Shown: positions 36,529 to 53,244 of the stretch, one piece after another
How the letters are laid out: every line of letters starts with the position of its first letter
Position numbering within the stretch: the first letter of the stretch is position 1
Assembly: GCA_025464625.1 (NCBI GenBank)
Contig: JAOAUZ010000001.1
Span: 836,848-900,847, forward strand
Direction of reading: 5' to 3'
Length of the DNA: 64,000 nucleotides
From: Rickettsiales bacterium
GTDB taxonomy: Bacteria; Pseudomonadota; Alphaproteobacteria; Rickettsiales; SXRF01
Translations under genes and position numbers: made by a program
Notes under the pieces: model-generated
What the model was told of the DNA's origin: nothing
What the model saw: only the letters and a program-made list of their open reading frames with translations
Database searches by the model: none

Positions 36529-36587
36529 CATTTAACAAAAGTTTTCTCCAGCAAATAAACTGTGCTATATTGATGCAGGGGTGGCAT

Positions 36588-37058
36588 ATGAATTACAGAA
36601 AACAGATTACTATATTTTTTATAATTTTAATGGCGGTTTTGATAGCCGATGTTAGTTCCACATCGGCAGCGGGGAAACACCGCCGAAAACTAGCTTATGA
36701 TGTGTGTGACTGTAAGGGGTATGATGGGATTGGCGGGCCGTGTTACGCTGGAATTGGTGGCGCTGCCTATGATGGCATTGGCGGGCCCGCTTATGCTGGT
36801 GTGGGTGGTGCATGCTATGACGGGGTTGGAGGATCAAAATACGATGGCATTGGCGGAGCTGCATACTCTGGGATTGGCGGTCCTGAATATGACGGTGTGG
36901 GTGGTCCGAGATATGACGGCGTAGGCGGAGCATATTATTCTGGTGTCGGAGGTCCTGCCTACGCTGGAGTGGGCGGACCATGCTATGCGGGAATTGGAGG
37001 CCCTTGCTATTACAGAGTGGCAGGGGAAGGATCATGCTCTAGGATTTGCGAAGAATAA
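36588..37058 (+). CDS. Secreted Gly/Tyr-rich octapeptide-repeat protein
   Basis: A 156-residue exported protein. The start at 36588 (MNYRKQITIFF) is chosen because AGGGG lies just before it, rather than the in-frame ATG at 36570. A signal peptide (hydrophobic residues 7-22, probable cleavage near TSAA-G) leads to a short basic Cys segment (KHRRKLAYDVCDCKG) and 12 consecutive 8-residue units Y-[DAS]-G-[IV]-G-G-[PAS]-x, then a Cys-containing tail. Cys recurs at unit position 8. The regular Gly-Gly turns suggest an extended surface or matrix protein, perhaps cross-linked by Cys or Tyr. Function unknown. Confidence 0.85.
   Translation: MNYRKQITIFFIILMAVLIADVSSTSAAGKHRRKLAYDVCDCKGYDGIGGPCYAGIGGAAYDGIGGPAYAGVGGACYDGVGGSKYDGIGGAAYSGIGGPEYDGVGGPRYDGVGGAYYSGVGGPAYAGVGGPCYAGIGGPCYYRVAGEGSCSRICEE
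36720..37007 (+). repeat. Twelve 24-bp tandem repeats in coding sequence
   Basis: Twelve units of 24 bp encode the octapeptide Y-x-G-[IV]-G-G-x-x. Units vary at many synonymous sites (GGCGGG, GGTGGC, GGAGGC and so on), so this is an old, selected array and not a recent slippage product. Confidence 0.93.
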
Positions 37059-39052: not shown

Positions 39053-39811
39053 TTATTCTACGCAAAAAACCCCATTTGTCACCCAATTAGCGAACCAGTC
39101 CTGCAAATTATTGATGATAATCGCTGCGTGGGATTCATGTTCATCTATGGTTGCATCAAGCGCATCAGAGACGTTTTTACCGCTTGATATATTCTGTAAT
39201 AGGCTGAATTCCTGCTCGCTTAGATTATGCCTCTGCACCTCGTTATTATGGCGCAAAACCAACAACCAGCTAGAGGTTGGCAAAGGAACTGGTGGCAAAT
39301 TATCTCCAGCACGGGCAAGAGTCAGAAAATCATTAATTTGATAGTCAAAACACAGTAATTTATGGGCAGTACGAAGTTTAAGGCGCATTTCACCAAAATC
39401 CTCTACTGATATTCCGTTCAAGCTTTCAGGGGAAAGTGGCTTACTATCAGGCAACATAAATACTTCAGCAATCGTGGCTTCAAGAGTGGCAAGTGCAACG
39501 GCAAAAGAATTACCGCTATTTTTGCCAATAAATTCTGCGAATTTATGCGGATAAAAATCAAGATTATAGCTAGTGGGTGGATTTTTCTCTATATAAGCAC
39601 GAGCCATAGAGTCAAACTCAGAATCACCCAATAGCTTCAACAATATTGGATAATCACTGCGGATTGCTTTAATAAGCCTTATTCGGTAGCCATCAGAATA
39701 AATGGCAAATTGCTGGGAAACATCAAGACGTGAATGTGGTTTTATAGTAGGTTTTACCTGCGAATCATCATTTTCTAAAATTGCCTTATGAAAATCAGAA
39801 TATATTTTCAT
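39053..39811 (-). CDS. bufC: Bufferin partner protein BufC (DUF2063)
   Basis: DUF2063 (HvfC/BufC) protein (252 residues), the partner of the MNIO enzyme in bufferin synthesis. The N-terminal FHKAILENDD ... LDVSQQFAIYSDGYRIRLIKAIRSDYPILLKLLGDSEFDSMARAYI is the typical DUF2063 helical domain; the C-terminal half is a second domain with a winged-helix-like end. It overlaps bufB by ATGA, and its ribosome-binding GAGGG is supplied by the palindromic repeat at 39815-39846. Confidence 0.88.
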   Translation of the reverse strand: MKIYSDFHKAILENDDSQVKPTIKPHSRLDVSQQFAIYSDGYRIRLIKAIRSDYPILLKLLGDSEFDSMARAYIEKNPPTSYNLDFYPHKFAEFIGKNSGNSFAVALATLEATIAEVFMLPDSKPLSPESLNGISVEDFGEMRLKLRTAHKLLCFDYQINDFLTLARAGDNLPPVPLPTSSWLLVLRHNNEVQRHNLSEQEFSLLQNISSGKNVSDALDATIDEHESHAAIIINNLQDWFANWVTNGVFCVE

Positions 39812-40659
39812 AATCCCTCACCCAACCCTCTCCCAGAGGGAGAGGGCAAATAAAGACGCGCTTTATCAAGTTCCGCAAGCAACACGTCAAATTCAGGAAT
39901 ATTATCATCCCACTCTATCATTGTGCTGATTTTTCCTTTGGTTTTTATCGTGTAACTATATAAATCCCAGACATCATCCTTCACATGTGCGTCGTGCGTA
40001 TCAACTATATGCGTGCCAAAATTATGATGCCCAGCCAGATGAATCTGCGCGATTTTATCCGTTGGAATCGCATCTATATATTTCTTAGCGTCATAGCCAT
40101 GATTAAAAGAATTAACATAAATATTATTCACATCTAGCAATAGCCCACAGCCAGTATTCTCTGTCAGATTTGCCAGAAACTTCCATTCAGGGATGGTAGA
40201 TTCATTAAATTCCAGATAGGTAGAAGGATTTTCCAAGATGAACGAGCGGTCAAGATAATCCTGCACCTGTTTTATACGCTCTGATATATGATTTAATGTC
40301 TGCAGAGTGTAAGGCACTGGCAACAAATCATGCGTGTTTTTACTACCGATACCTGTCCAACAAAGATGGTCTGAAAACCAAGCTGGTTGCAGGAAATCAG
40401 CTAGTTCTTTAAGTTTTTGTAGATATGTTTTATTAAGGGGATCAGTCGAACCGATATTCAGCGATACGCCATGCATAATAATCGGATAATCTTGACGCAA
40501 ATCAGCAAGAAAATCCCAATATCCATTATGAGCTTCTATAAAATTTTCGGAGATTATTTCAAACCAATCAACGGATTTTGGGCGAGTTTCTAAAATAATA
40601 TCATAGTGCTGGGCGCGAAGACCAAGCCCAAAACCAAGATTGGGATATTTTGTTATCAT
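39808..40659 (-). CDS. bufB: Bufferin-modifying MNIO enzyme BufB (DUF692)
   Basis: MNIO (formerly DUF692) multinuclear iron oxidase (283 residues), TIM-barrel fold. N-terminal LGFGLGLRAQHYDII, EIISENFIEAHNGYWDFL, MHGVSLNIGSTDPLN, the ligands in SDHLCW, LLLDVNNIYVNSFNHG and HLAGHHNFGTHIVDTHDAHV are family blocks with conserved His/Asp/Glu. The family oxidises Cys of bufferin precursors to thiooxazole groups. Its last residues (PSPSGRGLGEGL) are encoded by a palindromic repeat and are unlikely to be ancestral. Confidence 0.92.
   Translation of the reverse strand: MITKYPNLGFGLGLRAQHYDIILETRPKSVDWFEIISENFIEAHNGYWDFLADLRQDYPIIMHGVSLNIGSTDPLNKTYLQKLKELADFLQPAWFSDHLCWTGIGSKNTHDLLPVPYTLQTLNHISERIKQVQDYLDRSFILENPSTYLEFNESTIPEWKFLANLTENTGCGLLLDVNNIYVNSFNHGYDAKKYIDAIPTDKIAQIHLAGHHNFGTHIVDTHDAHVKDDVWDLYSYTIKTKGKISTMIEWDDNIPEFDVLLAELDKARLYLPSPSGRGLGEGL
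39815..39846. repeat. Dispersed palindromic repeat, family C (bufB-bufC junction)
   Basis: CCCTCACCCAACCCTCTCCC followed by AGA and GGGAGAGGG. On the minus strand it encodes the last residues of bufB and gives GGTGAGGG just before the bufC ATG. It is the same element as 40666-40702. Confidence 0.85.
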
Positions 40660-40665
40660 TTATAA

Positions 40666-40702
40666 CCCCTCACCCCTCCCTCTCCCCAGAAGGGAGAGGG
40701 GG
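40666..40702. repeat. Dispersed palindromic repeat, family C (bufA-bufB gap)
   Basis: CCCCTCACCCCTCCCTCTCC plus its inverted GGGAGAGGGG arm. On the minus strand it gives GGTGAGGGG just before the bufB ATG (40659), so it acts as the ribosome-binding site. The hairpin also lies between bufA (the abundant precursor) and bufB, where it could lower downstream expression. Confidence 0.85.
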
Positions 40703-40717
40703 AAGTAAGAATAGAAA

Positions 40718-40993
40718 CTACTTCGCAGCAGGAGGAGTGAGTTTTCCGCCTTCTTTTTCACAAGCAGCTTTATCAGCAAATTTCCATTCGTTAGGATCAT
40801 TGTCTGTTTTAGCAGCGCCAGCACAAGAATGTGAACCATTTGCTGTTTTGCAATCATTCTTGCCAGCTTTAGCAATGCCATAGCATTTATCTTTAGCACC
40901 AGCCATCATTTTGTCATCAGCAGCGTTAGCTGACATAGCAACACCAGCAGTGAATACGCCAGCAAGAGCGGTAGCGAGTAAAGTCTTATTCAT
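40718..40993 (-). CDS. bufA: Bufferin precursor BufA1 (DUF2282)
   Basis: DUF2282 bufferin precursor (91 residues), a metal-binding RiPP. A signal peptide ([20 protein letters not shown] ... ANA) is followed by a core with four Cys: [21 protein letters not shown] and AACEKEGG. These are modified by BufB/BufC and the exported peptide is thought to sequester copper. AGGAGA precedes the ATG, and a SigF-type promoter lies 64-89 bases upstream. First gene of bufA-bufB-bufC. Confidence 0.92.
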
Positions 40994-41056
40994 AATAAAA
41001 TCTCCTAAAAAAATTATACATTAAGTAGCAAGGGAACAACCTCTGCTGCTCATCCA

Positions 41057-41082
41057 TTCGTATAACATTTGAAAAAGGTTAC
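41057..41082 (-). promoter_or_regulatory. SigF-type ECF promoter of the bufferin operon
   Basis: Minus-strand GTAACC (41082-41077), exactly 16 bases, CGAA (41060-41057). This is the GTAACC-N16-CGAA form recalled for Caulobacter SigF. It begins right after the nrsF stop and lies 64 bases before the bufA ATG. Confidence 0.82.
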
Positions 41083-41083
41083 G

Positions 41084-41716
41084 TCACCACTTTAAAATTT
41101 TTCTTCCCAGCCATAAACCGAATAAACTAAGAACAATAACAGGAAGATAATGCCATTTTATAAGATGTATTACCGAATCATTATTTTCCGAAATCCTTAA
41201 TATTATTGCGCCTATGCTCGATGCAGAAAGAATCGCAACCATCCCCGCTAAATAGTAATGTGTGGTCGCCTGTTTGCGAAGCAGTTTAAATATTATAAAA
41301 GAAGGTAATATGGCAAACATAGTGATACATAATAAACATTCTATCCCATGCACTACATTACCGATTGGCGGCTTGTCACCGATATATTCCAATAATAAAA
41401 CTCCAGAAAATAACAATAGCGGAGCTAAAAACAAAATTGTGTAGCGTTTTTGGCATATATCAGGGAATGAAAGAAAAGAAGCTGATAATGAGGTGCTGAT
41501 TACTAACAAAACAAGCATCACAATTTCAGTGATGAATAGAGGAGAGGATAATTTAACAATAATATCCGCCCTTACCCCCGAAATAAGAAGAATAATTACG
41601 GTATATAAAAATACAAAACCAACCCATTTAACGAATGTTTTATAAGGGCAGGCGTTTGCTTTCACTGGTTGCAAACCGTGGCTTAAATTTTCAATTAATT
41701 GTTCTGTACTGGACAT
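41084..41716 (-). CDS. nrsF: Anti-sigma factor NrsF (DUF1109)
   Basis: A 210-residue inner-membrane protein with about six hydrophobic spans, matching NrsF/DUF1109, the anti-sigma factor of SigF-type ECF factors. The short N-terminal cytoplasmic part (TEQLIENLSHGLQPVKA) resembles the family start. Several Cys (ACPYK, DICQK, ECLLC) could take part in sensing; in Caulobacter conserved NrsF cysteines are needed for the metal response. It follows sigF after one base. Confidence 0.88.
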   Translation of the reverse strand: MSSTEQLIENLSHGLQPVKANACPYKTFVKWVGFVFLYTVIILLISGVRADIIVKLSSPLFITEIVMLVLLVISTSLSASFLSFPDICQKRYTILFLAPLLLFSGVLLLEYIGDKPPIGNVVHGIECLLCITMFAILPSFIIFKLLRKQATTHYYLAGMVAILSASSIGAIILRISENNDSVIHLIKWHYLPVIVLSLFGLWLGRKILKW

Positions 41717-41717
41717 A

Positions 41718-42266
41718 TTATTTATTCAATTTCTTTCTGAGTATCTTATAGGCACGGTGCGCTGCAACTTTCACTGCTGACTCGCTCATACCTATTTTTT
41801 GCGCCACTTCCTTTGCCGTATAGCCCTCACCATGAATCATTTTCAGGATTTTCGGCTGGTTTCCAGACAAATTTTCTACCTCCTCACTTATAGATTCGTA
41901 AGAAAAGCAGATTTCGGTTACATCACCCGCAGAAATATTTTCAATTTCTTCTATTTCACCAGCAGCGCGTAGCGGATCCGCATAATGTTTACGCAAATAA
42001 TCCTGCAAACGGTAATTGGCTATAGCATATAGCCACGGCTCATATAGTCGGTTTCCATCATAGGTATGACGAGCCTTATGGAGAGAAATTAGAATTTCTT
42101 GCAAAACATCCTCAACATCACCAGCCCGATACACACGTTTTGCTAGATAAGGTCTTAATAATATTGCTGAATTTTTAAGTAAAATGCTGTACGATTTCCC
42201 ATCGCCAGCTAGTGCCAAGCGCATTAGTTCTGCGTAATTATTAGTTTCGGTTTTTATTTTGGTCAC
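41718..42266 (-). CDS. sigF: ECF sigma factor of the SigF/NrsF type
   Basis: ECF sigma factor (182 residues). Sigma-2 includes ILLRPYLAKRV, DVEDVLQEILISLHKARHTYD and PWLYAIANYRLQDYLRK; sigma-4 has EGYTAKEVAQKIGMSESAVKVAAHRAYKILRKKL. The start is a GTG at 42266 with AAAGG before it; the longer frame to 42590 overlaps the divergent doxX and adds unrelated residues. Its ribosome site shares bases with the -35 of the doxX promoter on the other strand. Confidence 0.9.
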   Translation of the reverse strand: MTKIKTETNNYAELMRLALAGDGKSYSILLKNSAILLRPYLAKRVYRAGDVEDVLQEILISLHKARHTYDGNRLYEPWLYAIANYRLQDYLRKHYADPLRAAGEIEEIENISAGDVTEICFSYESISEEVENLSGNQPKILKMIHGEGYTAKEVAQKIGMSESAVKVAAHRAYKILRKKLNK

Positions 42267-42268
42267 CT

Positions 42269-42294
42269 GTAACCTTTTTTTATAAAAGAACGAA
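42269..42294 (+). promoter_or_regulatory. SigF-type ECF promoter of the doxX-msrBA operon
   Basis: GTAACC (42269-42274), exactly 16 bases, CGAA (42291-42294), 37 bases before the doxX ATG. Same motif and spacing as the promoter before bufA. Confidence 0.83.
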
Positions 42295-42330
42295 TGAGTC
42301 AATGAAGGAAACAAATTATACAGAACAAAT

Positions 42331-42774
42331 ATGAAACTATTAATTAACATATATAACAAATTCATTGCAACACTCAATAAATTAAACCCGTTGATGATAT
42401 TAGTGCTTCGACTATGGATAGCCCATATATTCTGGGCTTCTGGTATGGTAAAAATTGAGGATTTCAGCAATACAGTTGCTCTGTTTCGTGATGAATATAA
42501 AACACCATTCTTACCACCAGAAATAGCTGCAGTTTTAGGAACATTTTTTGAGTTATCCTGCCCGATATTACTCACTCTTGGGCTAGCCACTCGCCTTGCC
42601 GCCCTACCCTTGCTTGCTATGACGGCTGTTATTCAGTTTACTTATGATCAAAATGAGCAACATATATATTGGGCTATGTTACTTGGCACTATTTTAGTAA
42701 GTGGCGCAGGTAAAATTTCACTGGATTATTTAATAAGTAAAAAATTTAACCAACATAGAAAGGAAAATTTATGA
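42331..42774 (+). CDS. DoxX family membrane protein (BufD-like)
   Basis: DoxX-type four-helix membrane protein (147 residues). LMILVLRLWIAHIFWASGMVKIEDF, LPPEIAAVLGTFFELSCPILLTLGLATRLAALPLL and a conserved Arg/His pattern are typical. In Caulobacter a DoxX gene (bufD) closes the bufferin operon; here it heads a divergent operon controlled by the same kind of promoter. Its role in redox or metal stress is not settled. Confidence 0.88.
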   Translation: MKLLINIYNKFIATLNKLNPLMILVLRLWIAHIFWASGMVKIEDFSNTVALFRDEYKTPFLPPEIAAVLGTFFELSCPILLTLGLATRLAALPLLAMTAVIQFTYDQNEQHIYWAMLLGTILVSGAGKISLDYLISKKFNQHRKENL

Positions 42775-42926
42775 CAGAAGAACCAGAAAAAAAAGGCGGA
42801 AGTTGCAAAACAAAATGTTGTGGCACAGGAAGTTGCTCCATGAAATTAAACCCCCTATGCTTTATGATAAAGATTACCATAATGGTAGCTATTATTGCGT
42901 TTGCCGTGCAGTATTTCATGAAATAA
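42771..42926 (+). CDS. Cys-rich membrane miniprotein
   Basis: A 51-residue protein easily missed. The ATG overlaps the doxX stop as ATGA. The N-terminus is MTEEPEKKGG, followed by a Cys cluster SCKTKCCGTGSCS (five Cys in 13 residues), one further Cys in LNPLCFM, and a single membrane span (FMIKITIMVAIIAFAVQYF) ending in MK. The layout suggests a membrane-tethered metal-binding peptide. The codon-start overlap, tight packing with msrB (7 bases) and sensible composition support it being real. No known family recognised. Confidence 0.78.
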   Translation: MTEEPEKKGGSCKTKCCGTGSCSMKLNPLCFMIKITIMVAIIAFAVQYFMK

Positions 42927-42933
42927 CCATGCC

Positions 42934-43314
42934 ATGCCCAGCGACAAATTGAAAAACAAGCTATCACCACAGGCTTGCAACGTCCTTTATGAAGAAGGAA
43001 CTGAGCATCCGTTCAGCAGCCAGCTTAATGATGAAAACCGCACAGGAATTTATGTTTGCGCTGGTTGCGGTGCCGAACTATTTTATTCTACGCAGAAATA
43101 TAACAGTGGCACAGGCTGGCCAAGTTTTTTTGATGTAATTGCTGGGCATGTAGAAACTAAAACCGATAAAAAATTATTTTCGCCACGCGTTGAATATCAC
43201 TGCGCTAATTGTGGTGGGCATCAAGGACATGTTTTTGAAGATGGCCCTGAGCCAACGGGGCTTCGCTATTGCAATAATGGTGTCGCTCTTAAGTTTATTC
43301 CAAAAGAAACCTGA
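42934..43314 (+). CDS. msrB: Peptide methionine-R-sulfoxide reductase MsrB
   Basis: MsrB (126 residues), reducing Met-R-sulfoxide. The structural zinc Cys pairs are CAGC and CANC; TGWPSFFD and HCANCGGHQGHVFEDGP are family blocks, and the catalytic Cys is in GLRYCNNG, followed by VALKF. No signal peptide, so cytoplasmic. The start at 42934 is fixed by frame: an ATG five bases earlier runs into a stop. Confidence 0.95.
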   Translation: MPSDKLKNKLSPQACNVLYEEGTEHPFSSQLNDENRTGIYVCAGCGAELFYSTQKYNSGTGWPSFFDVIAGHVETKTDKKLFSPRVEYHCANCGGHQGHVFEDGPEPTGLRYCNNGVALKFIPKET

Positions 43315-43315
43315 T

Positions 43316-43903
43316 ATGAAAAAATATTTTTTAGTCTCAACATTAATTTTGTTATTCAACATGGGAGCAGCTATGGCAGAAACAGACACTAAAACGGCAA
43401 TTTTTGCAGGTGGGTGTTTCTGGTGTATGGAGCCACAGTTTGCTGGTATTGCTGGTGTTAACAAAGTTGTTTCTGGTTATACTGGTGGTCATATTAAAAA
43501 CCCCACTTATGAGCAAGTATCCACTGGAAAAACAGGGCATTTGGAGGCAATTCAAGTTGTTTATTCCCCTAAGCAGGTAAGTTATAATCAACTCTTAGAT
43601 ATCTTCTGGGATAATATAGATCCAATGGATGCAGAAGGTCAGTTTTGCGACAAAGGCTCACAATATCTGGCAGGAATTTTTACTTATGATGATGAGCAGA
43701 AAAAACTAGCAGAAGAATCAAAAGAAAAAATCAGAAAGAAATTTGGTAAACCTATCGCCACTATCATAAAACCAGCATCAGAATTTTATCCAGCGGAAGA
43801 CTATCATCAGGAGTTTTATATAAAAAGCAAAGACCATTATAAACGTTACAAGAGTGGCTGCGGGCGTGATGAGAGGTTAGAACAACTAAAAAACAATCCT
43901 TAA
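43316..43903 (+). CDS. msrA: Exported peptide methionine-S-sulfoxide reductase MsrA
   Basis: MsrA (195 residues). The catalytic GGCFWCMEPQF and the family blocks GYTGGHIKNPTYEQV and HLEAIQVVYSP are clear. The start at 43316 (MKKYFLVSTLI), one base after msrB, gives a signal peptide ending near AAMAE, so this copy acts in the periplasm while MsrB stays in the cytoplasm. The longer frame from 43190 lies inside msrB. Co-regulated with the bufferin locus by SigF, as msrAB is in Caulobacter. Confidence 0.94.
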   Translation: MKKYFLVSTLILLFNMGAAMAETDTKTAIFAGGCFWCMEPQFAGIAGVNKVVSGYTGGHIKNPTYEQVSTGKTGHLEAIQVVYSPKQVSYNQLLDIFWDNIDPMDAEGQFCDKGSQYLAGIFTYDDEQKKLAEESKEKIRKKFGKPIATIIKPASEFYPAEDYHQEFYIKSKDHYKRYKSGCGRDERLEQLKNNP

Positions 43904-51825: not shown

Positions 51826-52164
51826 ATGTCCAACGATGAAATACAGTATAGCAGTAATGTAACGTTGCTTTCTTGCGCTTGCAAGCATCCAAGTTGGGAA
51901 GAGGTTGGTGATCTCTACCAAGCAAAAATTAGTGCATCTTCCCTGAAAACCTTATCAAATGTAAAGTCAGCTTTAGTAAGTGTGATGAAGCCTAATACGG
52001 TTAGCAATATTAATATTGAACCAATGGCAATAGAGGGTTCGGATGGCAAAACCGAAAGCTGGAATGTTATTTCCATAAATGTAAAAGATGTAGATGAGGA
52101 AAAGCTAAAGAAGGTGGCTATGAATGCGCTGGGATACTCAAAAAGCGGTCATAGATTTCCCTGA
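51826..52164 (+). CDS. Hypothetical protein
   Basis: A 112-residue hydrophilic protein not recognised. It has two close Cys (LLSCACKH), a helical middle (SASSLKTLSNVKSALVSVM) and beta-strand-like ends (SWNVISINVKDVDEEKLKK). No signal peptide. It lies between the tgt and queA genes but on the opposite strand, and its last 27 bases overlap the 3' end of queA, which lowers confidence a little. The frame is open with sensible codon use. Confidence 0.55.
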   Translation: MSNDEIQYSSNVTLLSCACKHPSWEEVGDLYQAKISASSLKTLSNVKSALVSVMKPNTVSNINIEPMAIEGSDGKTESWNVISINVKDVDEEKLKKVAMNALGYSKSGHRFP

Positions 52165-53244
52165 CAAAAAACAGGCATCACCATAAGAATAAAAGCGGTA
52201 TTTTTGCTCTATGGCATGGGCATAGGCTGCTTTCATTTTATCAATCCCACTAAAAGCACAAACTAGCATAAACAAAGTTGATTTGGGCAGGTGGAAATTG
52301 GTAAGCATGGCATCCACTATCTTAAAGCGATAACTAGGTGTTATAAAAATATTAGTTTCTCCTGCAAATTCCCGAACAATTCCTTGTTCATCAGCAGCCG
52401 ATTCTAGCGTGCGAACACTGGTTGTGCCAATTGCTATAACCCGCCCGCCAGCCTGTTTTACATTGTTTATAATTTTTGCGGTTTCCTTAGAAATTTCTGC
52501 ATATTCACTATGCATAATGTGATTTTTTGTATCCTCAACCTTGACTGGCAAAAATGTTCCGCCACCAACATGCAGCGTCACATGAACACGCTTCACACCA
52601 ATAGCATCAATTTTTTCTAATAATTCTTTGGTGAAATGCAAGCCAGCCGTGGGTGCTGCCACCGAACCAGAATTTTCTGCGTAAACTGTTTGGTAGTTAT
52701 TATTGTCAGACACATCAGCATGACGGGTTTTTTCAATATATGGCGGCAGTGGCATTGAACCATATTGTTCTAATTTCTTATAAAATTCAGAATCATTATA
52801 CGGGAATTTTAGCAGAACCTGCCCATCATCATATTTTTGTATAACTTCCGCACTGAAATCATCCGCAAATTTTACCACATCACCAATGCGTAATTTCTTT
52901 GCTGGCTTGGCAAAACATTGCCAACTATTATTGTCATCTCGAACACAGTGAGAGATCTCATCATTATTCTGCAAAGATCCCTCGACAAGCTCGGGATGAC
53001 AGCGTTTATGCAGCAACACTTCAACCTTCACCAAACCACGAGTACCAAATAAGCGTGCGGGAATAACTTTGGTGTCATTAAACACCAGCACATCCCCTGC
53101 CCGCAGATAATCCGTTAAATTGGCTATGGTTTTATCCTGCAGTTCATCACCAACCACCAACATCCGCGCAGCATCACGCGGAAAAATAGGTTCTGTGGCA
53201 ATGCATTCAGGTGGTAAAGTAAAATCAAATAATGAGGTTTTCAT
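52138..53244 (-). CDS. queA: S-adenosylmethionine:tRNA ribosyltransferase-isomerase
   Basis: QueA (368 residues), which turns preQ1 in tRNA into epoxyqueuosine using SAM. N-terminal FDFTLPPECIATEPIFPRDAARML, DVLVFNDTKVIPARLFG, GSVAAPTAGLHFT, HVTLHVGGGTFLPVK and the C-terminal NFHLPKSTLFMLVCAFSG are family blocks. About 25 residues after VEVLLHK (CHPELVEGSLQNNDEIS and onward) are encoded by an inserted palindromic repeat (52932-53001). The frame is intact, so the enzyme may tolerate the insert as a surface loop. Confidence 0.95.
   Translation of the reverse strand: MKTSLFDFTLPPECIATEPIFPRDAARMLVVGDELQDKTIANLTDYLRAGDVLVFNDTKVIPARLFGTRGLVKVEVLLHKRCHPELVEGSLQNNDEISHCVRDDNNSWQCFAKPAKKLRIGDVVKFADDFSAEVIQKYDDGQVLLKFPYNDSEFYKKLEQYGSMPLPPYIEKTRHADVSDNNNYQTVYAENSGSVAAPTAGLHFTKELLEKIDAIGVKRVHVTLHVGGGTFLPVKVEDTKNHIMHSEYAEISKETAKIINNVKQAGGRVIAIGTTSVRTLESAADEQGIVREFAGETNIFITPSYRFKIVDAMLTNFHLPKSTLFMLVCAFSGIDKMKAAYAHAIEQKYRFYSYGDACFLSGKSMTAF
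52932..53001. repeat. Dispersed palindromic repeat, family A (inside queA)
   Basis: A 70-bp element with ends TGTCATCTCGA and TCGGGATGACA, matching the family at 12816-12899 (GAGCTTGTCGA and GATC words). It sits in frame within queA, length a near multiple of three, with no stop codon. Confidence 0.85.

Follow-up and report, generated by a model that had tools for sequence, protein, structure and literature searches.

The window analysed here, a stretch of 64,000 nucleotides, comes from a member of a Rickettsiales family of MAGs, a genome of 7 contigs that is rated 100% complete. On the reverse strand, sigF (41718–42266 (−); Sigma70_r2/r4) encodes an ECF sigma factor with a putative GTG start and is followed by nrsF (41084–41716 (−); NrsF, 1.8e-35), which encodes the anti-sigma factor. 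Profile matches assign bufA (40718–40993 (−)) to the bufferin-type RiPP precursors, with DUF2282, a signal peptide and a Cys-bearing core. bufB (39808–40659 (−); PF05114, 5e-107) encodes an MNIO enzyme (DUF692), and bufC (39053–39811 (−); PF09836, 2.5e-19) encodes a DUF2063 partner protein. On the forward strand, doxX (42331–42774 (+); Pfam DoxX, 2.6e-19), which has orthologues in relatives, is the first gene of an operon that extends through msrB (42934–43314 (+); SelR, 6.7e-46, and TIGR00357), encoding a leaderless protein of 126 residues, to msrA (43316–43903 (+); PMSR, 2.3e-60), whose product bears an N-terminal signal peptide (MKKYFLVSTLILLFNMGAAMA). Between doxX and msrB lies a 51-codon frame (42771–42926 (+)), named miniC in this analysis, for a Cys-headed peptide with a single membrane span.

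A SigF-type promoter, GTAACC-N16-CGAAT, precedes doxX (42269–42295 (+)) and would drive doxX-miniC-msrB-msrA, while a second one (41056–41082 (−)) would drive bufA-bufB-bufC. With a spacing of 15–18, the motif has four exact matches genome-wide (two for the control), two of which flank sigF-nrsF. In relatives, a SigF-type motif is located 52–89 bases before doxX, and most of the examined family members have one. No terminator-like site was found from doxX to msrA. Since GTAACC-N16-CGAAT is located upstream of doxX both here and in relatives, the assignment of the doxX unit to a SigF operon, made earlier in the first-pass annotation, is well supported; the same motif upstream of bufA and the conserved arrangement of sigF-nrsF-bufABC and doxX-msrB-msrA in the family agree with it. 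A further GTAACC-CGAAT motif, with a spacing one longer, is located inside sigF (41894–41921 (−)) and occupies the same place in several relatives; it may be either an internal nrsF promoter or mere coding constraint. In Caulobacter, SigF responds to chromium and to cadmium (PMC3511200), and bufferins chelate copper (PMC12452194).

Other features of the window were observed near this locus and further away. An inverted repeat, CCCTCTCCCC-AGAAGGGAGAGGG, lies in the bufA-bufB gap (40669–40709), next to the start side of bufB, and the C-terminus of BufB ends in a similar Gly/Ser-rich, palindrome-like tail (LPSPSGRGLGEGL); together they look as though a palindromic element had been inserted at the ends of genes. 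In queA (52138–53244 (−)), an in-frame, insert-like stretch, HPELVEGSLQNNDEISHCVRDDNN, presumably recalls the Rickettsia palindromic elements. The frame at 36570–37058 (+) encodes a secreted-looking protein with many repeats of the YDGIGGPxYAGVGG type and scattered Cys residues.

The miniC frame runs from the ATG at 42771 to the TAA at 42924–42926 and translates to MTEEPEKKGGSCKTKCCGTGSCSMKLNPLCFMIKITIMVAIIAFAVQYFMK (51 residues). Its start overlaps the doxX stop codon (TGA, 42772–42774) as ATGA at 42771–42774, and 7 bases, CCATGCC, lie between its TAA and the msrB ATG at 42934, both as previously described. A Shine-Dalgarno sequence of −5.6 kcal/mol precedes the ATG. The first-pass annotation had counted five Cys residues within 13 residues; the motif, SCKTKCCGTGSCS, contains four (Cys12, Cys16, Cys17, and Cys22), all in a head formed by residues 1–27, and the fifth, Cys30, is outside the motif at the start of the span. 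The proposed single membrane span at the C-terminal end is confirmed at residues 28–50, with a 19-residue mean hydropathy of 2.41 and, in a single-sequence AlphaFold model, a helix over the same residues with pLDDT of about 80–91, the head being modeled with uncertainty. The charge distribution weakly favors an N-in topology, and the Cys residues would then face the cytosol, an orientation more fitting for a thiol or metal binder than for a sensor in the periplasm. The earlier interpretation is supported in part: the position, the span and the location in a SigF-type metal/thiol-stress operon beside a bufferin (RiPP metallophore) cluster hold, whereas conservation does not.

The searches returned no homologue of miniC elsewhere in its own genome, among 55 relatives, 344 genomes of the order and 385 genomes of the class, or in viral and GTDB contig collections, plasmids and phages, and the peptide has no match in Pfam, NCBIfam, PHROGs or the PDB. 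The DNA behind 80 doxX loci contains no miniC-like frame, and a DNA search of the family revealed neither a source of the segment nor a relative that carries it. Weak order-level matches (E 0.003–0.3) were rejected, as they have no doxX or msrB nearby and are mostly stop-containing or in other frames; ten other matches from a DNA-pattern search were likewise rejected, none lying in a frame that has a Cys head and, directly after it, a membrane span. A literature search for small, Cys-rich proteins of the membrane with a link to msr or doxX returned nothing relevant. The first-pass annotation had expected support from a homologous frame beside doxX or msrB in relatives and had regarded its absence as refutation; no such frame is present in the family, the order or the class.

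The relatives use this position differently. doxX followed by msrB is kept in five family members (G007, G004, G012, G014, and G008), and no miniC-like frame is present in these five. In every one of them, the MsrB frame opens right at the doxX stop codon or shortly past it, and its leader (MHRREFIKIALVGASLLALCKASKAFA or MERRKFLQLALATACTLGF, for instance) is twin-Arg-like or has a similar basic-hydrophobic character. In the window, miniC occupies the position of the Shine-Dalgarno sequence and ATG where these leaders start, and the start Met of MsrB corresponds to an internal Met of the relatives (IMKSDDEWKK against AMPSDKLKNK). The twin-Arg motif is absent from the miniC frame, and no trace of a Tat-like leader was found in any frame. 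Since the window MsrB is placed in the MsrB tree within a clade of mostly leadered, partly SigF-linked enzymes, with its sister not resolved, the leader loss is most simply explained as a derived change in the window lineage. An additional MsrB, leaderless and about 134 residues long, is encoded near nrsF at L073 and L077/L104 (G006 and G011), and leaderless copies thus arise elsewhere in the family. At the order-level locus L087 (G322), which encodes the nearest MsrB (74%), a leader beginning with MDKRDF and continuing with FLRLGVTTVGA (about 1400–1530) lies directly behind a doxX end and seems to be disrupted by a single base at a T run. In such MsrBs, the leader frames may be prone to errors or vary.

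A single MsrB and a single MsrA were found in the genome, and the latter keeps its signal peptide. A sole leaderless MsrB is odd in this setting because MsrA is exported and a Tat or Sec-like leader is present on the SigF-linked MsrBs of relatives. miniC might alternatively be an N-terminal signal-anchor that belongs to MsrB and was severed from it by a frameshift of one base, arising from an assembly error, a real mutation or a ribosomal +1 shift at AAA-TAA. The miniC frame, closed by its TAA, is offset from that of MsrB by +1, so that one base alone separates them, and the joined product would have 180 residues, with a Cys-rich cytosolic head, one span and a periplasmic MsrB, close to the length of the open frames of leadered MsrBs (about 165–180 residues). 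MsrB leaders of the span type occur within the order (L106), and the seemingly broken leader of the nearest MsrB provides a parallel. We take this explanation seriously because of the one-base gap, the matching joined length and the sole leaderless MsrB beside an exported MsrA. On the other hand, no other gene in the window looks frameshifted, the genome is rated complete in only a few contigs, and msrB begins with an ATG of its own in the expected position. None of the classical stimulators of a +1 shift can be seen, and an MsrB with a Cys-rich head was not found in the 344 genomes of the order. A severed MsrB anchor is considered unlikely.

Because miniC has neither a homologue nor a codon signal, we also take seriously that it is a chance opening in the DNA left after the loss of the MsrB leader, which could be translated with no function other than, perhaps, the delivery of ribosomes to msrB. 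Openings of 50 codons have a probability of about 0.07 at this base composition, and msrB may be the origin of the Shine-Dalgarno sequence and ATG. Codon usage is neutral (the synonymous score is −0.04, compared with 0.06 in genes and −0.06 in shadow frames), the first-position GC content is atypical (0.31 vs 0.54 for genes), and codon statistics thus give the coding of miniC no support. However, miniC fills the gap between doxX and msrB almost exactly, the former Tat leader has left no trace there, and the features of the peptide are rarely combined. Among 7648 random 51-codon open stretches of the same composition, 102 (1.3%) have four or more Cys within 13 residues and 34 (0.4%) have a span as hydrophobic as that of miniC, while none has both. 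The two features also do not occur together in any of the 260 other frames of 40–75 residues within the window, where about 0.2 would be expected at the window's own rates. This combination is unusual, yet within reach of chance on composition alone, and we regard a chance origin as somewhat unlikely.

The first-pass annotation had also proposed a RiPP-like substrate, in which case miniC would be a second precursor modified by the neighboring MNIO enzyme (BufB/BufC). The Cys-rich head and the SigF-type regulon shared with the MNIO cluster are in line with this proposal, but every hallmark tested is missing. miniC has no N-terminal Sec signal, its sole hydrophobic stretch being the C-terminal one at residues 28–50, and it matches neither DUF2282 nor a bufferin profile in Pfam or NCBIfam. 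Signal peptides of precursors are reported to go with the type of partner protein (PMC12452194). The place directly before the MNIO gene is held by bufA, the actual RiPP precursor of this locus, whereas miniC belongs to the divergent unit. An alignment of miniC with BufA was no better than those with shuffled sequences (1065/2000), and a kinship between them was rejected. A role as a RiPP precursor is thus highly improbable.

We tentatively prefer, with slightly less than even confidence, that miniC is a lineage-specific, N-in, Cys-headed membrane micropeptide made together with DoxX and MsrAB. This reading is placed first because of the close fit to the gap, the good Shine-Dalgarno sequence, and the rare Cys head with a strong span. 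In the proposed mechanism, metal or thiol stress would cause NrsF to release SigF, giving one transcript for DoxX, miniC, MsrB and MsrA. The miniC gene would have taken over the translation start of msrB, the Shine-Dalgarno sequence and ATG behind doxX serving the MsrB leader in relatives and miniC here. These elements may be leftovers of the leader start, and they are no proof of selection on miniC. Since msrB starts 7 bases past the miniC stop codon without its own Shine-Dalgarno sequence, translation of MsrB is probably coupled to that of miniC by termination-reinitiation. doxX also has no Shine-Dalgarno sequence, so that its absence from msrB is weak evidence of coupling. The RNA folding at the miniC-msrB junction is unremarkable (z −0.35). 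The peptide would be an inner-membrane protein whose head projects into the cytosol; there, four to five Cys residues in reduced form might coordinate a soft metal (Cu(I) or Zn(II), for example) or exchange thiols beside DoxX and the now cytosolic MsrB. From anatomy and neighborhood only, we infer a SigF-controlled site for thiols or metals on the cytosolic face of the membrane. The complete scenario, in which a free-standing Cys-rich membrane micropeptide displaced the export leader, reused the old MsrB start, became translationally coupled and acts beside DoxX as a membrane thiol/metal partner of the relocated cytosolic MsrB, is doubtful as a whole and seems quite unlikely to hold in every part.

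Should miniC be translated, the copper/thiol-stress regulon would include a Cys-rich membrane micropeptide of recent origin, and a small gene of its own would have taken the place of an export leader. Should miniC instead be a split MsrB anchor, it would be a warning against naming micropeptides from frames beside leaderless enzymes. Under either reading, the N-termini of msrB genes behind doxX deserve checking.

One close comparison is with the leadered MsrBs (SelR PF01641, TIGR00357) of related Rickettsiales, which share a core of about 60–74% identity and the same slot behind doxX. Unlike these enzymes, the window MsrB has no Tat or Sec-like leader, and a frame distinct from its own occupies the slot. 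FeoB-associated Cys-rich membrane proteins are very small and have one span and a Cys cluster, with the span first and the Cys tail last. miniC resembles them in its tiny size, single span and Cys cluster, but its Cys head precedes the span, and it has no Pfam match. For the locus as a whole, the Caulobacter SigF/NrsF bufferin-1 operon CC3252–CC3257 shares the sigF, nrsF, DUF2282, DUF692, DUF2063 and DoxX genes (PMC3511200, PMC12452194). In contrast to that operon, doxX in the window is divergent and grouped with msrB and msrA, and the 51-codon Cys-bearing frame is located between doxX and msrB.
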